64,000 nt of DNA from Paludibacterium purpuratum (GTDB taxonomy: Bacteria; Pseudomonadota; Gammaproteobacteria; Burkholderiales; Chromobacteriaceae). This document shows, piece after piece, positions 29,765-37,477 of the stretch; position 1 is the first letter of the stretch, and each line of letters opens with the position of its first letter. Under the pieces are notes generated by a model. The model was not told where the DNA came from. It was given only the letters and a program-made list of their open reading frames with translations, and made no database searches. Location: contig NZ_SNZP01000014.1 of the NCBI RefSeq assembly GCF_004363805.1, forward strand, positions 1 to 64,000. Direction: 5' to 3'. Both the position numbers and the translations under genes were made by a program.

Positions 29765-30190
29765 TCAACCGCGCGTGCCGAGCGCGCCGGCTTCGGCCAG
29801 CGCCTCCAGGAGCCGCGCGGTGCTCTCGCCGCTGACCGTGAACGGATCGAGCTGTGCTTGATCCGAGTAGCGCAGCAAGAGCGACATATTTAGCTTGTCG
29901 AGCGCGACGCGCGCCATGGCCCAGTTGGCGTAGCGGCGTTCGACGATCTCTTCGTAGCTCAGCAGCGTCACGTCCTGGTGGCGCGGGTCTTTCGCCAAGA
30001 GCTGGAATAGCCGGTTGACTTCGTCCCGCCCGCCTTCCAGTACCTGAACAAAGGTGTTGCGGCTGTAGCACAGCAGGCCGGTGATGCCCTTGGTCGGATT
30101 GTGCACTTGGGCTTGCGACAGGATGTCTTCGATCAGCCGCCCGGAAATGGCTTCTTGGGTATGACTGGCATAAATCAGGCGCACCAACAT
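29765..30190 (-). CDS. Short BLUF-domain blue-light photoreceptor
   Basis: A 141-residue flavin photoreceptor. The key residues Tyr7, Asn31, Gln49 and Trp90 are spaced exactly like Tyr21, Asn45, Gln63 and Trp104 of AppA, so FAD photochemistry should work. It has no output domain, only a C-terminal cap of about 45 residues, so it should signal through a partner protein. It starts two bases after folE ends and is therefore in one operon with it. Confidence 0.93.
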   Translation of the reverse strand: MLVRLIYASHTQEAISGRLIEDILSQAQVHNPTKGITGLLCYSRNTFVQVLEGGRDEVNRLFQLLAKDPRHQDVTLLSYEEIVERRYANWAMARVALDKLNMSLLLRYSDQAQLDPFTVSGESTARLLEALAEAGALGTRG

Positions 30191-30960: not shown

Positions 30961-32742
30961 ATGAAGGCAAGTATACGCATGAAAAGCTTACTTTTGGCCA
31001 TCCCCAGCAAATTCAATCGCTTATCTTTTGTGGGGTTATTGACCCTGCTGGTCGCGGTTCGGGCGCTGGCCGGCCCGGCTGCGCCCGAGGCCGCGACGGG
31101 GTTCGCCGCCAAGGCGGCGGTCGAGAGCCGCCATCAGATGATCATCACGGCGACGCCGCTGTCGAGCCAGGCCGGTATGGCTATGCTTGCGCGCGGCGGC
31201 AGCGCGATCGATGCCGCCATTGCCGCCCAGGCGATGCTGGGATTGACCGAGCCGCAATCCTCCGGCATCGGTGGCGGCGCCTTTCTGGTGTATTTCGACG
31301 GTCGGCGCGTGGCGACCTTCGATGGGCGTGAAACCGCACCGGCCGCGGCCCGTCCTGATCGCTTTCTAAATGCCGAAGGTCAGGCGTTGGATTTCTACCG
31401 AGCGGTGGTCGGCGGCCGTTCGGTCGGCGTGCCGGGCGTGCTGGCCATGCTGTCCTTGGCCCACAAGCGTTACGGCCGCCTACCTTGGGCGATGCTGTTC
31501 CAGCCGGCGATCTCCCAGGCCGAGCGTGGTTTCCCGATCTCGCCGCGCTTGTATGGCCTGCTGGCAGGGGAACGTTTCCTCGCGCGGAGCGAGCCGGCGA
31601 AAAGTTATTTCTACCGCGCCGACGGCAGTCCCAAGCCGATCGGAACGATGCTGAAAAACCCCGCTTATGCCGCGACCTTGCGTCTGATCGCCCGCCGGGG
31701 GCCGGCGGCGTTCTACCGGGGCGAACTGGCGCGCGACATCGTCGCTGCCGTGGATCGGGCCGCGGGCAGCCCTGGCGATATGACCCTGGCCGACCTGAGA
31801 AACTATCGTGCCATCGAGCGCGAACCGGTGTGCGGCAGTTATCGCGACTACCGCTTGTGCGGCATGGGGCCGCCGAGCTCGGGCGGGGTGGCGGTATTGC
31901 AAATGCTGAAGGTGCTGGAGCGTTTCCCGCTCGCAAGCTATGCGCCGCAGTCGGTCGATGCCGTCCACTTGTTCAGCGAGGCCGGCCGCCTGGCGTTTGC
32001 CGATCGCGGCAAGTACCTGGCCGACCCCGATTTTGTGCGGGTGCCGACGCAAGCATTGCTCGATCCGGCGTACTTGGCGGGCCGCAGCCAGCTGATCGAT
32101 CCACTCAAGTCGATGGGCAAGGCGCAGCCTGGCACCCTACCTGGCCAGCCGGTCGCCTGGGGCGCCGACAGTGCTGTGGAGCTGCCCTGCACCAGCCAGC
32201 TGACGATCGTCGATCGTTTCGGCCATGCCCTGAGCATGACCACCACCATCGAAGATCAATTCGGTAGTCGCATCATGGTGCCGGGGCGTGGGTTTCTGTT
32301 GAATAACCAGTTGACCGACTTTTCCTTCAATCCGGTCGACCAAGGACAGCCGGTGGCCAATCGCGTCGAGGGCGGCAAGCGGCCGCGTAGCGCCATGGCG
32401 CCGATGCTGGTGTTCGATGCAGAAGGCAAGCTGTATGCCATCGCGGGTTCCCCCGGCGGCAGTGCGATCATCAACTATGTGGCCCAGACCTTGATCGGGA
32501 TGTTGGACTGGCATCTCGATCCGCAGCAGGCGGTATCGTTGCCGCATTACGGTAGCCGCAACGGTCCGACCGAGCTGGAGGCCGGCCGCGATTTGGATCA
32601 ACTGGCGCCGCTCTTGGCGGCGCGAGGCCATCAAATTGAGCAGACCGATCTGACCAGCGGCTTGGCCGCCCTTGCGCGCTCGCGCTCGGGATGGGTCGGC
32701 GGTGCCGACCCGCGTCGCGAAGGCATGGTGCTCGGGAACTGA
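30961..32742 (+). CDS. ggt: Gamma-glutamyltransferase (glutathione hydrolase)
   Basis: A 593-residue periplasmic N-terminal-nucleophile enzyme. It has a signal peptide (hydrophobic GLLTLLVAVRALA) and the N-terminal GGSAIDAAIAAQAMLGLTEPQSSGIGGGAF. The autoprocessing site is in LPCTSQLTIVDRFG, the Thr being the new N-terminus of the small subunit. Then follow GFLLNNQLTDFSF and GKRPRSAMAPMLVF, and the oxyanion GSPGGS. It cleaves glutathione and transfers gamma-glutamyl groups. The start is uncertain: ATG 30961 or 30979, neither with a strong ribosome site; both keep the signal peptide. It is divergent from folE. Confidence 0.92.
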   Translation: MKASIRMKSLLLAIPSKFNRLSFVGLLTLLVAVRALAGPAAPEAATGFAAKAAVESRHQMIITATPLSSQAGMAMLARGGSAIDAAIAAQAMLGLTEPQSSGIGGGAFLVYFDGRRVATFDGRETAPAAARPDRFLNAEGQALDFYRAVVGGRSVGVPGVLAMLSLAHKRYGRLPWAMLFQPAISQAERGFPISPRLYGLLAGERFLARSEPAKSYFYRADGSPKPIGTMLKNPAYAATLRLIARRGPAAFYRGELARDIVAAVDRAAGSPGDMTLADLRNYRAIEREPVCGSYRDYRLCGMGPPSSGGVAVLQMLKVLERFPLASYAPQSVDAVHLFSEAGRLAFADRGKYLADPDFVRVPTQALLDPAYLAGRSQLIDPLKSMGKAQPGTLPGQPVAWGADSAVELPCTSQLTIVDRFGHALSMTTTIEDQFGSRIMVPGRGFLLNNQLTDFSFNPVDQGQPVANRVEGGKRPRSAMAPMLVFDAEGKLYAIAGSPGGSAIINYVAQTLIGMLDWHLDPQQAVSLPHYGSRNGPTELEAGRDLDQLAPLLAARGHQIEQTDLTSGLAALARSRSGWVGGADPRREGMVLGN

Positions 32743-32777
32743 CCGAAAGTGCGCAATATTGTCTAATCACTTGATCC

Positions 32778-32790
32778 TGACGTAACGTCA
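32778..32790. promoter_or_regulatory. MerR-type operator upstream of the MerR-methyltransferase fusion
   Basis: TGACGT-A-ACGTCA is a perfect palindrome of 6-bp arms between a TTGATC (-35-like, 32771) and a TTCTAT/TATTCT (-10-like). Dyads inside the promoter spacer are the hallmark of MerR-family control. Confidence 0.65.
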
Positions 32791-32821
32791 TATTCTATGG
32801 TGCTGTCAGGAGGAAGGCTGC

Positions 32822-34726
32822 ATGTGGCTGAAAATCGGTGAATTGGCACGGCGTACCGGGCTGACGGTGCGTACTTTGCATCACTACGACCATATCGGTT
32901 TGCTGTCGCCATCCGGGCGTAGCGGCGGCGGTTTCCGGCTGTATGGTCGGGACGATGTCGAACGGCTGCACCGTATTCTGGTACTGCGCCAACTCGGGTA
33001 CGCCCTGGACGATATCCGCCAGTTGCTGGCGGTGCCCGAACCGGATCCGCGCCTGCTCGATCGGCAGATTGCCTTCCTCGATCGACAACTCCGACAGACC
33101 CAGATCCTGAAAGCCCGCCTGGAACGGCTACGCGCGCGCTTGGCCGAGCCTCATGGCGTGGAAATCGGCGACTGGCTGTCGATCCTGGAGATGATGGCCA
33201 TGTTGGAAAAGCATTTATCCCCCGAGGAGTTGCAGACGCTACGCGAGCAGGAAGCTCGCAGCGGCGGCGAGCTCAACCGGGTCTGGACCGAATTGATGAC
33301 GGCAGTGAGCGCGGCGATGGCGCAAGGCGCGACGCCGGATAGCGAAACGGGGCGAGAGCTCGGTTGGCGTTGGGGGCTGTTGCTGCGCGATATCACCGGC
33401 AACGATGTTTCGCTGGCGCTGAAGCTACGCGACTTGTATGTCGCCGAGTCGCGCGCGCAACAGATTCGCGGGCTGACGCCTACGATGATGGGTTGGTTGG
33501 CCGATGGTGCCGCCCATGCCCACGTGGCGTTGCTGGCACCGTTTTTGAGCAAGGCCGAGCAGCAGACGGTCCTGCAGCGCCAGCGGCGCCATGGCCCGTC
33601 CTGGGCGGTGCTGATCGCCGAAGTCAGACAGGCCATGCGACAGGGCATGGCGGTGGACGACGAACGAGCGCAAGCGTTGGCTCGGCGCTGGCTGGACTTG
33701 TTCGCCGACTCGTATTTCGGCGACGACAAGCAATTGGAGAGCCGGGTTCGTCGGGCATTCCTGCAGGAACCGCGCCTGACCCAGCATATCGGCGTCGACC
33801 AAGACTTGATTTCCTGGGTTCACCGAGCCATGGAGCACGTATACACCCCTTTTCGTACCCAGAGCGACAATCGCGCGCCCAAGCCCAGCGCCTTCATGGT
33901 CGCCGTGCAACGCGCGGCGCACCAATGGTATGACCGGCCGCTGGTGTTTACCGACCCGATGGCCATGACCATGGCCGGCGAGGTCGAGGCCGAGGCCATC
34001 CGCACCGAACTCGAACGTTTCGATAATCCGTTTGCGCTAGGGCTGCGCACTGCGCTGGCGGTGCGAAGCCGGTTGGCGGAAGACTTGTGGGCCGAAGCCG
34101 AACGGCGTGGCGTGCGCCAATACGTGATCCTCGGCGCCGGGCTCGATACCTATGCCTATCGAGGCGCCGCCGCGCCGGATACGCAGGTATTCGAAGTGGA
34201 TCTGCCGGACACCCAGCAGTGGAAGCGCGCGCACATGGCCGAGTGCGGCATCGCCGAGCCGGCCTCGGTGCGCTATGTCCCGGTTTGCTTCGAACGGCAG
34301 ACGCTGGCCGATGCGCTACAAGCGGCGGGCTTCAAGCACGACGAACCGGCGTTCTTTTCCTGGCTGGGGGTGGTGATGTACCTGGAGCCGGACGCCGTGA
34401 TGCAGACGTTGGCTTTCATCGCCGGCTGCCCGGCCGGCAGCGGCGTGGTGTTCGACTACTCGCTGGCGTCGTCGGCGATGGGTGCTTTGGAGCAGAGCAT
34501 CCAAGCCGGCATGGTGGCGCGGCTCGCGCAGATGGGAGAGCCGGTGAAGAGCTTCTTCGAGCCGGCGGCATTGTGCGAAAAGCTCGAGGCGCTGGGATTC
34601 GCCCTGGTCGACGACTATTCGGCGCAACGGCTTAACCAGCACTACCTCGCCGGGCGCGAAGACAATATGCACTATGCCGGCATCTCGCATATCATGCATG
34701 CCGCGCGTTCCGCCGCCGCGGAGTAA
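32822..34726 (+). CDS. MerR/TipAS regulator fused to an LCM-type SAM-dependent methyltransferase
   Basis: A 634-residue fusion in one frame. Residues 1-70 are a MerR winged helix (KIGELARRTGLTVRTLHHYDHIGLLSP), followed by the dimerisation coil (about 75-115) and a helical TipAS-like region (about 120-330). Residues about 350-630 are a leucine carboxyl methyltransferase-family domain (PF04072 type): RTALAVRSRLAED, the SAM-binding VILGAGLDTYAYR, FEVDLPDTQQWKR and FFSWLGVVMYL. A palindrome inside the promoter spacer suggests autoregulation. AGGAGGAAGG precedes the ATG. Either the regulator senses or modifies a small molecule, or it methylates its own ligand; this is inference. Confidence 0.9.
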   Translation: MWLKIGELARRTGLTVRTLHHYDHIGLLSPSGRSGGGFRLYGRDDVERLHRILVLRQLGYALDDIRQLLAVPEPDPRLLDRQIAFLDRQLRQTQILKARLERLRARLAEPHGVEIGDWLSILEMMAMLEKHLSPEELQTLREQEARSGGELNRVWTELMTAVSAAMAQGATPDSETGRELGWRWGLLLRDITGNDVSLALKLRDLYVAESRAQQIRGLTPTMMGWLADGAAHAHVALLAPFLSKAEQQTVLQRQRRHGPSWAVLIAEVRQAMRQGMAVDDERAQALARRWLDLFADSYFGDDKQLESRVRRAFLQEPRLTQHIGVDQDLISWVHRAMEHVYTPFRTQSDNRAPKPSAFMVAVQRAAHQWYDRPLVFTDPMAMTMAGEVEAEAIRTELERFDNPFALGLRTALAVRSRLAEDLWAEAERRGVRQYVILGAGLDTYAYRGAAAPDTQVFEVDLPDTQQWKRAHMAECGIAEPASVRYVPVCFERQTLADALQAAGFKHDEPAFFSWLGVVMYLEPDAVMQTLAFIAGCPAGSGVVFDYSLASSAMGALEQSIQAGMVARLAQMGEPVKSFFEPAALCEKLEALGFALVDDYSAQRLNQHYLAGREDNMHYAGISHIMHAARSAAAE

Positions 34727-34798
34727 GCCGGTGAGCGCTCGGGCGACTTTCATTTATGATAGGCATTTCATGCAAAGCGCCCGATAGCGATTCCCCCT

Positions 34799-36022
34799 AT
34801 GCCGCACAATCCGACCGATGTCGCCGCCATCCTGATTTTCCTGTTCACCTATCTGGTGGTGGCCATCGGCCGCTTGCCCAAGCTACAGCTCGACCGGGCC
34901 GGCGCGGCCGTGCTGGGGGCCAGCCTGATGGTCGCCTTCGGTGTCATGTCGTTGGCCGAAGCCTGGCGCGCCATCGACTTCGAGACCCTGTTGCTGCTGC
35001 TGGGCATGATGATCCTGGTGGCCAATCTGCGCTTATCGGGCTTTTTCGCCCTGGTGAACCGTTGGGCGGTGGAGCGGGCCCGGCATCCGTTGGCGCTATT
35101 GATCGCCGTGACCCTGGTTTCCGGCGTCCTGTCGGCCTTCCTGGTCAACGATATGGTCTGCTTGGTGTTGACGCCGCTGGTGTTGGACATGGTCTTGCTG
35201 CTCGGCCGCAATCCGGTGCCGTACCTTTTGGCGGTGGCGATGGGATCGAACATCGGCAGCGTGGCCACATTGACCGGCAACCCGCAGAACATCATCGTCG
35301 GCAGCCTATCGCATATTCCCTATCCGCTGTTCTTCGCCCGACTGGCGCCGGTGGCGCTGATGGGATTGGCGCTATGCGTGTTGGTGATCGGCCTGGCCTT
35401 TCGCCGCGAGTTCGCCAGCGGGGGCTTTGCGCCCGTCGAGGCGCAGCCGGTGCGATTTCATGGCGTGCTGGTGGTCAAATCGCTGCTGGCGACGCTGGTG
35501 TTGGTGGTCAGCCTGTTCGCCGGCGCACCGGCCGCCGGTGTCGCCATGTTGATCGGTTCGTTGCTGCTACTGACGCGGCGGGTGAAAGCGCACAAGGTGT
35601 ATCGGGAGGTCGATGGTCCGCTGCTGATGTTGTTCGGCGGCTTGTTCGTGGTGGTCGCCGGGCTGGAAAAAACCGTAATGAGCCCGGCGTTGCTGGCCCA
35701 GGCCGGGCATTGGCCGCTGGGGCACGTGCCGCTGCTCTCCATCGTCACCGCCGTGCTGTCTAACATCGTCAGCAATGTGCCGGCCGTGCTGGTGCTCAAG
35801 CCCTTCATCGAGCCGCTTGCCAATGCGCAGCAGGCTTGGTTGACGGTCGCCATGGCGTCGACGCTGGCCGGCAACTTCACCCTGGTCGGTTCGGTGGCCA
35901 ACCTGATCGTCGCGCACCGGGCGCGGGCGCGCGGTGTGGACATCGGCTTCTGGCGCTATTTCCTGGTCGGTGCGCCGCTGACGGTGCTGACCATTCTGTG
36001 TGGCGCCTGGTGGCTGAGTTAA
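34799..36022 (+). CDS. SLC13/ArsB-like anion permease
   Basis: A 407-residue inner-membrane protein of the ion-transporter superfamily with about ten helices. Family marks are SAFLVNDMVCLVLTPLV in the first half, MGSNIGSVATLTGNPQNIIVGS after it, and LSNIVSNVPAVLVL with LAGNFTLVGSVANLIVA in the second half. These are the paired substrate loops of SLC13/CitM/ArsB carriers. Substrate cannot be told; candidates are dicarboxylates, sulfate or arsenite. No ars genes adjoin. The stop overlaps the 3' end of the HD-GYP gene by four bases, tail to tail. Confidence 0.85.
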   Translation: MPHNPTDVAAILIFLFTYLVVAIGRLPKLQLDRAGAAVLGASLMVAFGVMSLAEAWRAIDFETLLLLLGMMILVANLRLSGFFALVNRWAVERARHPLALLIAVTLVSGVLSAFLVNDMVCLVLTPLVLDMVLLLGRNPVPYLLAVAMGSNIGSVATLTGNPQNIIVGSLSHIPYPLFFARLAPVALMGLALCVLVIGLAFRREFASGGFAPVEAQPVRFHGVLVVKSLLATLVLVVSLFAGAPAAGVAMLIGSLLLLTRRVKAHKVYREVDGPLLMLFGGLFVVVAGLEKTVMSPALLAQAGHWPLGHVPLLSIVTAVLSNIVSNVPAVLVLKPFIEPLANAQQAWLTVAMASTLAGNFTLVGSVANLIVAHRARARGVDIGFWRYFLVGAPLTVLTILCGAWWLS

Positions 36023-37344
36023 GCGTTGCCTTGGCCGCGCCCCTCGGTCATGTCGTCCGCCAAGCGCCAAAACGCGCTTAATTCCTCCCCTTCGCGCTGC
36101 TGCACCTCGCGGCAAAGTCTGCCGATGTCATCGTGATGGCGCTTGAGCGTGGCGACCACGGCCGGCTCCAGTTGCTTGGCGGCCACCAGATCCTCCAGGT
36201 GCGCGAACACCTGGATTTCGGGTAGTCCCTGTCGGTAGGGACGATCCTCGATCAGCGCGGTGTAGATATCCGCTACCGCCATGATGCGCGCACCCAGGCT
36301 GAGCTTGTCCGCGGACTTGTGGAACGGATAGCCGCTGCCGTCGAGACGTTCATGATGGTGCGATGCCCATTCGGCAATATCGCTCAGTCCGTTGATTTTG
36401 CTGAGGATGTCGTGCGTGATGTAGCTGTGCGAGCGCATGCGCGCCATCTCTTCCCGCGCCAGTGGGCCCCCGCGGTTGATGTACTCGTTGGGGATGGCCA
36501 ACTTGCCGGTATCGTGCAAATAACCGGCGATACGCATCTTGGCCGCCTCGGCCGCGCTCATGCCCATGTGGCGGGCGATGGTTTCGGCGCAGATCGCCAC
36601 ACCGGCGGAGTGCGTGGCGGTGAAATGGCTACGCGAGTCGATGATCAACGCAAAGAAGCGCGCAAACAACATCAGCTTCGGCAGATCCAGTTCGATGTCC
36701 TCGAACGGCGCCAGCGCCTTGAGAATTTGATCGAGATTGACGGAAAACAGATCCAACCAGAAGCGCTCGGCGCGCGACACCGCCAGGAAAGCCGCCACAT
36801 GATCGGGGTGGAATACCGCGCCGGCTTTTTCGGCGATGCACAGCCGGATCTCCTCCATGTCCGCCAGGATATTGTCCCGCCCCTGCGCCAATACTTCGAT
36901 GCGGTCGGCCAAGTGGATCAGATGGCTCAACATCGGCACCGGGCGTTGTTCGAACCGCTGTCCGGCCCCGTCTTCCCACGGGACATGATGGTATGCCACC
37001 AGCGATGCATATGGTCGGAAGGCTTCGAATTGTCCCAGCAGGTGGGCGCCCATCTGCGCGTGCCGGTGCGGTTCGATCTCCTCGAACGCCAAGAGACGCA
37101 ACCTGTCGTGCAGCGCCAGCGCGCCGATATCGTGAAAGATCGAGGCGATGAACAGACTGCGGTAATCGTCCATCGACAGCTGCATGGCCAGACCGATCTG
37201 GGCGGCGATCAGGCAAGTGCGTTTTTGGTGCGAGCCCAGCCGCGGGTCGAGCAGATCGAGCGTTGTGGACAAGGCCGCGACCATGTCGAACAGGCGAACG
37301 TTGAGCACGGCGTGGGAATGGGCATCGGTATGGACGACGGCCAT
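36019..37344 (-). CDS. Tandem HD-domain protein with C-terminal HD-GYP
   Basis: A 441-residue protein. The first half has an HD domain (SIFHDIGALALHDR, then VAYHHVPWED). The second has a full HD-GYP domain: TATHSAGVA, YLHDTGKLAIPNEYI, SHSYITHDIL and HHERLDGSGYPF, so c-di-GMP phosphodiesterase activity is likely there. The first HD lacks the GYP loop and may be regulatory. ATG 37344 is chosen because GAGAGG lies six bases before it; upstream ATGs at 37380, 37386 and 37407 lack such a site. No sensor domain or membrane helix is seen. Confidence 0.88.
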   Translation of the reverse strand: MAVVHTDAHSHAVLNVRLFDMVAALSTTLDLLDPRLGSHQKRTCLIAAQIGLAMQLSMDDYRSLFIASIFHDIGALALHDRLRLLAFEEIEPHRHAQMGAHLLGQFEAFRPYASLVAYHHVPWEDGAGQRFEQRPVPMLSHLIHLADRIEVLAQGRDNILADMEEIRLCIAEKAGAVFHPDHVAAFLAVSRAERFWLDLFSVNLDQILKALAPFEDIELDLPKLMLFARFFALIIDSRSHFTATHSAGVAICAETIARHMGMSAAEAAKMRIAGYLHDTGKLAIPNEYINRGGPLAREEMARMRSHSYITHDILSKINGLSDIAEWASHHHERLDGSGYPFHKSADKLSLGARIMAVADIYTALIEDRPYRQGLPEIQVFAHLEDLVAAKQLEPAVVATLKRHHDDIGRLCREVQQREGEELSAFWRLADDMTEGRGQGNA

Positions 37345-37477
37345 CGCATCCTCTCGGGCGCAAGACGTAAAAGATGACATAGCCATATTATAGTTATCTG
37401 CCAACACTTTGCTTGCCGCGCATGCTTTTCGATGGCTGATTGTAAATTTAGCATGATCTCTCTTTTAACGAGAGGTG

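Follow-up and report, generated by a model that had tools for sequence, protein, structure and literature searches.

A MerR-TipAS regulator fused to an LCM-family methyltransferase in Paludibacterium purpuratum, a candidate self-inducing resistance protein

The window, that is, the whole stretch of 64,000 nucleotides of Paludibacterium purpuratum analysed here (contig NZ_SNZP01000014.1, positions 1 to 64,000), carries a gene joining a MerR regulator, an AlbA-like tandem TipAS region and an LCM-family SAM methyltransferase in one reading frame (Table 1). The fusion is a genuine, conserved variant of the TipA/AlbA class. With moderate confidence, it is interpreted as a self-inducing resistance protein of the TipA/AlbA type which carries its own detoxifying enzyme. 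The TipA/AlbA class itself is known; the fused architecture appears undescribed, no description of a MerR / TipAS / LCM methyltransferase architecture having been found in the literature as judged from search results.

Table 1. Positions in the window of the fusion gene, its encoded domains and its promoter elements.
Feature	Position	Strand	Basis
Fusion gene MerR / tandem TipAS (AlbA-like) / LCM-family SAM methyltransferase	32822..34726	+	ORF, 634 aa, ATG start; profile searches
MerR winged HTH, residues 4-70	32831..33031	+	PF13411 (MerR_1), E 3.2e-18
AlbA-like tandem TipAS region (putative drug-binding), residues about 125-339	33194..33838	+	Pfam, PDB alignment
Variable interdomain linker, residues 340-356	33839..33889	+	Comparison of fusions
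LCM / TIGR00027 methyltransferase domain, residues 357-609	33890..34648	+	Pfam, NCBIfam
Met127, possible start codon of a shorter TipAS-methyltransferase product	33200..33202	+	GGAG 9 nt upstream
Promoter: TTGATC (-35) 32771-32776, 19-bp spacer 32777-32795, TATGGT (-10) 32796-32801	32771..32801	+	Read from sequence
Operator dyad TGACGTAACGTCA, perfect inverted repeat within the spacer	32778..32790		Read from sequence
Shine-Dalgarno AGGAGG	32808..32813	+	Read from sequence

Domains and promoter of the fusion gene

The earlier note had described a MerR-TipAS regulator fused to an LCM-type methyltransferase, and this architecture was confirmed with Pfam, NCBIfam and alignment to PDB entries. The N-terminus was also matched by PF00376 (E 3.4e-14). 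TipAS (PF07739) matched in two stretches, the best at residues 254-339 (E 1.2e-14), and residues 127-337 aligned along the tandem TipAS of AlbA (PDB 8rky, E 1.6e-18; 6et8, E 2e-18). The sensor, formerly called TipAS-like, was thus retained as TipAS and refined to AlbA-like tandem TipAS. The LCM profile (PF04072) matched residues 357-534 (E 5.6e-47; 160.5 against a cut-off of 22.3 bits) and TIGR00027 scored 175.1 against a cut-off of 93.55 bits; the fusion was the sole PF04072 match in its own genome. An AlphaFold model of the window protein and one relative had a mean pLDDT of 51, too poor for use.

The nearest full-length copy (L032, in a record named Paludibacterium sp.) was 76% identical to the window protein and 12 further full-length copies were 45-47% identical, which ruled out an assembly accident as the origin of the fusion. 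Fourteen distinct full fusions were found, in two Paludibacterium-type genomes, one Burkholderia plasmid and 11 genomes of the family of G678. The motif before Met127 was GGAG at 9 nt in 12 of the 14 and GGAA in two, the codons there being conserved anyway; Met127 and the upstream GGAG are no more than suggestive of a short TipAS-methyltransferase form.

A MerR-style dyad between the promoter elements had also been proposed, and a perfect dyad was found in the 19-bp spacer, its first base being position 32778, where the earlier note began the region. The operator was kept in all fusions: TTGNNCCTGACGNNACGT with a 19-bp spacer preceded the fused gene in 14/14, and every promoter combined a TTG hexamer, the 19-bp spacer and a second hexamer whose second base is A and whose sixth is T. 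In the whole 4.0-Mb genome, the operator pattern CCTGACGTNACGTCA had one exact match, the window promoter. The 12 other listed matches all had two mismatches, one of them being the window site on the other strand, and did not exceed the reversed-pattern control over the whole genome (22 matches). Scanning for sigma-70 promoters whose spacers measure 16-18 bp gave no match, as expected given the 19-bp spacer. The protein is held with high confidence to regulate its own gene.

AlbA of Klebsiella oxytoca and AlbB likewise have a MerR HTH, tandem TipAS with conserved tunnel Trp residues, and a dyad in the 19-bp spacer of a promoter upstream of their own gene. AlbA has 348 aa and no methyltransferase, whereas the window protein adds a methyltransferase of about 280 aa. 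According to the available excerpt (PMC10189885), AlbA binds a promoter with a 19-bp spacer and, when albicidin is present, activates it. TipA (Streptomyces lividans), SkgA and Mta are likewise each a single-gene autoregulated drug sensor, activator and neutraliser, a function that would extend to the window protein by analogy. In the accessible part of its source, TipA is an autoregulated minimal resistance system with long and short products (PMC7762955), and resistance by TipA and AlbA works by drug binding (PMC7762955, PMC10189885; excerpts). Those excerpts describe neutralisation by binding and no enzyme for the TipA class, whereas the window protein carries an enzyme domain. The direction of regulation, activation by ligand, would be that of AlbA and TipA.

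Distribution of fusions and split pairs

Full-length matches were found in 2/6 genomes at genus level, and full fusions in 2/61 near relatives, 2/399 genomes of the order sample and 1/369 genomes of the class sample (the own genome). The family of G678 had full fusions in 11/249 genomes (including G678, which is also in the order sample) and the family of G658 in 0/200. In the phylum sample (299), the own genome had the sole fusion and G658 the sole split pair seen. Among 110 plasmid records with a match there was one fusion, on Burkholderia pyrrocinia pBPJTT, annotated merely as methyltransferase. Each group was sampled in part and under strict E-value limits, so the fusion counts are minimums. 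None of 50,697 phage records covered 80% of the query, and the close-relative scan of viral contigs gave no match.

Three more genomes of the family of G678 encoded a TipAS-methyltransferase protein with no recognisable MerR (L146 in G807, L147 in G864, L148 in G838). A full MerR-type promoter lay directly upstream of L146 although its MerR was unrecognisable; none was found in the 400 bp upstream of L147 and L148. On a Comamonas endophytica plasmid (L049, 3629-4849), a fused-clade methyltransferase was in an open frame with the HTH and most of TipAS gone, MerR and TipAS remnants being detected by tblastn. That ORF is absent from the record's gene table, which is incomplete. Conversely, L159 was a regulator of the fused clade with no methyltransferase. 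A 787-aa frame with a stand-alone methyltransferase (L111) was rejected as another fusion, only LCM being detected in it.

A MerR-TipAS gene adjoined an LCM gene at 13 loci: one on a Klebsiella plasmid, one in G262, five in the family of G678 and six in the family of G658. The methyltransferase gene came first in one of them (G825, family of G678). Including this two-gene form, the architecture is a family and not a one-off. The Klebsiella pair (L048, NZ_CP117482.1, a conjugative K. pneumoniae plasmid) lay in a cassette of alpha/beta hydrolase, AraC, YkgJ-type protein, MerR-TipAS, LCM and HAD hydrolase genes, flanked on both sides by ISKpn26 transposase genes; the module is therefore not confined to soil Burkholderiales. 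It has the same two halves and operator type as the window protein and a methyltransferase of the sister clade, and it differs in having two genes, a regulator of a different TipAS lineage and an operator just before the enzyme gene. Operators preceded its YkgJ and LCM genes.

The fused set (including the MerR-less proteins and L049) and the split set (including L050 and L039) were joined in the methyltransferase tree with support of 99/91; they are sister clades if the tree is rooted outside them. The regulator tree separated the fused regulators from 12 of the 13 split regulators by a 100/100 branch, and placed the remaining one (L154) elsewhere on a long branch. Since sister enzyme clades are combined with regulators from different TipAS lineages, enzyme and sensor were brought together, or brought together anew, on more than one occasion. 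The sequences would fit two histories: related enzymes joined independently to sensors of two lineages, or an exchange of partners. Both imply that AlbA-type sensors and this enzyme clade are functionally tied.

The window domain passed the same cut-offs as the LCM / TIGR00027 methyltransferases ML2640 and Rv0731c, with the SAM motif intact. The PDB chains of these two have 302-310 aa, whereas the window domain is fused to a regulator and belongs to the fused clade, sister to the split-pair enzymes. At 35 stand-alone methyltransferase loci, mostly covered for 1.5 kb on either side, no MerR-TipAS was detected by HMM. Two split-clade methyltransferases stood alone, L050 without an operator and L039, truncated, with an operator and with no regulator within its 11.5-kb stretch.

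Operator placement and gene neighbourhood

The operator was just before the methyltransferase gene in 13/13 split pairs, the spacer being 19 bp in 8 of them and 20 bp in 5; it was directly before the regulator in only 1/13. The 13/13 count combines two patterns, as the 19-bp pattern missed five split pairs which the 20-bp version found; the latter was picked after near-matches of the 19-bp pattern were seen, and the L034 site has one mismatch. In the other eight split loci, the 20-bp pattern had no match. Over 145,355 bases from split loci, the 19-bp pattern had 9 matches at ≤1 mismatch and 17 at ≤2; the corresponding numbers were 0 and 1 for the reversed sequence and, averaged over ten Markov sets, 0 and 0.1. 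The 20-bp pattern had 9 matches against 0 reversed (≤1 mismatch). Matches to a palindromic operator can count on both strands. As a caution, the second operator copy of the Klebsiella plasmid heads an operon that includes the regulator, and the L154 regulator begins 13 bp after the methyltransferase on the same strand, so that regulator and methyltransferase may be co-transcribed from an operator. In 48 stretches, mostly stand-alone methyltransferase loci, operator matches occurred solely in the G424 locus (counted twice, as L039 and L192, and grouping with the split clade) and in L181 and L187, which are regulator loci.

Plain MerR-TipAS genes with no methyltransferase had the operator before themselves in 32/42 cases. 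In the other ten (L131, L114, L123, L115, L116, L120, L112, L118, L113 and L117) it preceded another gene, of the type MFS (6), Acyl_transf_3 (3) or AAA_33 (1). The MFS gene of L116 was about 1 kb from the regulator and scored 28.1 against a cut-off of 33.4, being clipped by the locus end; the AAA_33 gene was on the strand opposite to the regulator. These outputs of sister regulators are candidate drug-handling genes, and the methyltransferase, preceded by the operator as the efflux, acyltransferase and AAA_33 genes are, occupies the position of a drug-handling output. The enzyme is likely the resistance output of the system.

Copies of fusion promoters were found ahead of MFS genes in three records. 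On pBPJTT (L047, from 3002), 187 bp of promoter and gene start was repeated with 99% identity; this second copy is followed, after about 350 bp, by an MFS gene lying upstream of the fusion. In G1004 (L142, from 812), a second perfect operator was in a 75-bp, 79% identical promoter copy ahead of an MFS gene. In G678 (L176, from about 3198), a second perfect operator, 132 kb from the fusion, was in a 104-bp, 88% match to the fusion promoter of the same genome, again ahead of an MFS gene. The MFS proteins of L142 and L176 were 91-96% identical to that of pBPJTT and represent a single gene type (MFS identity by Pfam). The promoter copies suggest that the regulon can extend to efflux.

The earlier proposal that the methyltransferase modifies an inducer caught by the TipAS part received indirect support from the operator before the fused or enzyme gene (14 fusions, 13 split pairs) and from the outputs of sister regulators; its substrate and activity are presumed. 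The methyltransferase could instead act on another substrate, a cell component or the drug target, with the drug as mere inducer and the fusion saving a promoter without channelling any substrate. LCM enzymes include protein carboxyl methyltransferases, and the 13 split pairs, with the enzyme encoded by its own gene behind the operator, show that the two need not be physically coupled. However, promoter economy does not account for the three proteins that retain the TipAS-enzyme fusion with no recognisable MerR, and MFS and acyltransferase genes, which make up most of the other outputs of sister regulators, fit drug handling. Action on another substrate is thus considered unlikely.

The fusion behaves as a single-gene accessory unit. 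In the sister genome G003 (L198, compared with window 32742-37407), ggt was followed directly by the HDc gene and the fusion was absent. In the window, a CitMHS/ArsB-like transporter gene (34799-36022) lies between the fusion and the HDc gene; it was rejected as a partner because in the sister genome G002 the HDc gene comes directly after the fusion, with no transporter there. A small BLUF-like photoreceptor gene, named by eye, was observed just downstream of folE (window 29765-30190, - strand), and also beside folE in G002 and G003. Leaving aside the gene itself and overlapping ORFs, the most widespread neighbour family, LysR-like by eye, occurred at 6/27 loci. A biosynthetic or signalling role, in which the ligand would be a self-made metabolite that induces the methyltransferase tailoring it, would agree with the homologous methyltransferase in two phage records annotated O-methyltransferase of polyketide biosynthesis. 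It is rendered improbable by the lack of any neighbour family common to more than 6/27 loci, and by the absence of the gene at the G003 ggt-HDc site and its patchy occurrence (11/249), as expected of an accessory gene.

Conserved residues and proposed mechanism

Trp155, Trp184, Trp261, Trp290 and Arg310 of the window protein aligned with AlbA W27, W56, W133, W162 and R181, and the four Trp were kept in 12, 14, 14 and 14 of the 14 fusions, respectively. AlbA N75, H78, W195 (the fifth Trp of the tunnel) and Q205 were not conserved in the window protein. The residues recognising albicidin in AlbA are N75, R181 and Q205, with R181 anchoring its carboxylate (PMC6078987, available excerpt). They correspond to R203, R310 and H334 in the window protein, and only R181 was kept; with N75 and Q205 not kept, the window protein is not classed as an albicidin binder. 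The Arg that would anchor a carboxylate was kept in 12/14 fusions, 2/13 split and 23/42 plain regulators. This uneven retention and the changes at N75 and Q205 do not imply one shared carboxylate ligand.

The methyltransferase of the window protein has GAGLDT at 438-443, VFEVD at 456-460 and Cys489 in VPVCFE. The glycine motif GAGLDT and the acidic motif FEVD, which we take to be SAM-binding, were intact in 14/14 fusions, the residue before FEVD varying among I, L and V. A loss of SAM-binding residues in most homologues, which would have refuted the earlier proposal, was therefore not found. The Asp of VPVDFE, which contacts adenine in LCMT1 and may be a family-defining residue, is replaced by Cys489 in the window protein and by Ser in its sister, whereas the other 12 fusions retain it. 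In four fusion pairs, pN/pS of the methyltransferase was 0.34 (Paludibacterium), 0.14, 0.13 and 0.28, and that of the linker 0.41-1.09. One pair of MerR-less TipAS-methyltransferases had pN/pS of 0.32 in TipAS and 0.21 in the enzyme. By these sequence comparisons the enzyme domain is under purifying selection.

The enzyme of the window could be decaying or only bind ligand, the protein being purely an AlbA-like trap. The Asp to Cys/Ser change in both Paludibacterium copies and their somewhat higher methyltransferase pN/pS (0.34 against 0.13-0.28 in the three other pairs) point in that direction. That pN/pS is still well under 1, however, and SWLGVVMY, GAGLDT and VFEVD are intact in both copies, which makes a pure trap doubtful. 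Least credible is a domain that senses SAM, as suggested earlier, or methylation state and modulates the MerR switch: fusion to a DNA-binding regulator and the intact SAM motif would suit it, but in split systems the operator fronts the methyltransferase gene as it would an output, and the enzyme persists in three proteins with no recognisable DNA-binding domain.

Self-inducing resistance with an enzyme attached is the favoured explanation. With no ligand, the 19-bp-spacer promoter would have little or no activity. Once a toxic compound, probably aromatic and perhaps bearing a carboxylate, enters the tandem TipAS tunnel, MerR would realign the promoter and the protein would make more of itself. 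TipAS would trap the compound and the attached LCM methyltransferase would methylate it using SAM, possibly at a carboxyl or hydroxyl group, and thereby inactivate it. The TipAS ligand may well be the methyl acceptor. By analogy, albicidin- or cystobactamid-like aromatic compounds would be better first candidates than thiopeptides because the sensor is AlbA-like with tandem TipAS, though of the three residues by which AlbA recognises albicidin only R181 is kept. Points against self-inducing resistance are the Asp to Cys/Ser change in the window protein and its sister, the fused-clade regulator with no enzyme (L159), the mostly lost sensor of L049, the lone enzymes L050 and L039, and the stand-alone enzyme relatives, mostly unlinked to MerR-TipAS (0/35 loci by HMM).

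Tentatively, the fusion can be seen as a single-chain 'sense, trap and methylate' resistance protein that would disarm its own inducer covalently. It would belong to a broader modular arrangement, with a single operator common to the AlbA-type sensors and interchangeable outputs (methyltransferase, MFS efflux, acyltransferase, AAA_33 protein), the methyltransferase having become fused to the sensor in one lineage. If this is true, an inducer would be destroyed by its own sensor, and methylation would be predicted as a means of resisting aromatic gyrase poisons or similar compounds. The shared operator provides a genomic handle for finding further outputs.
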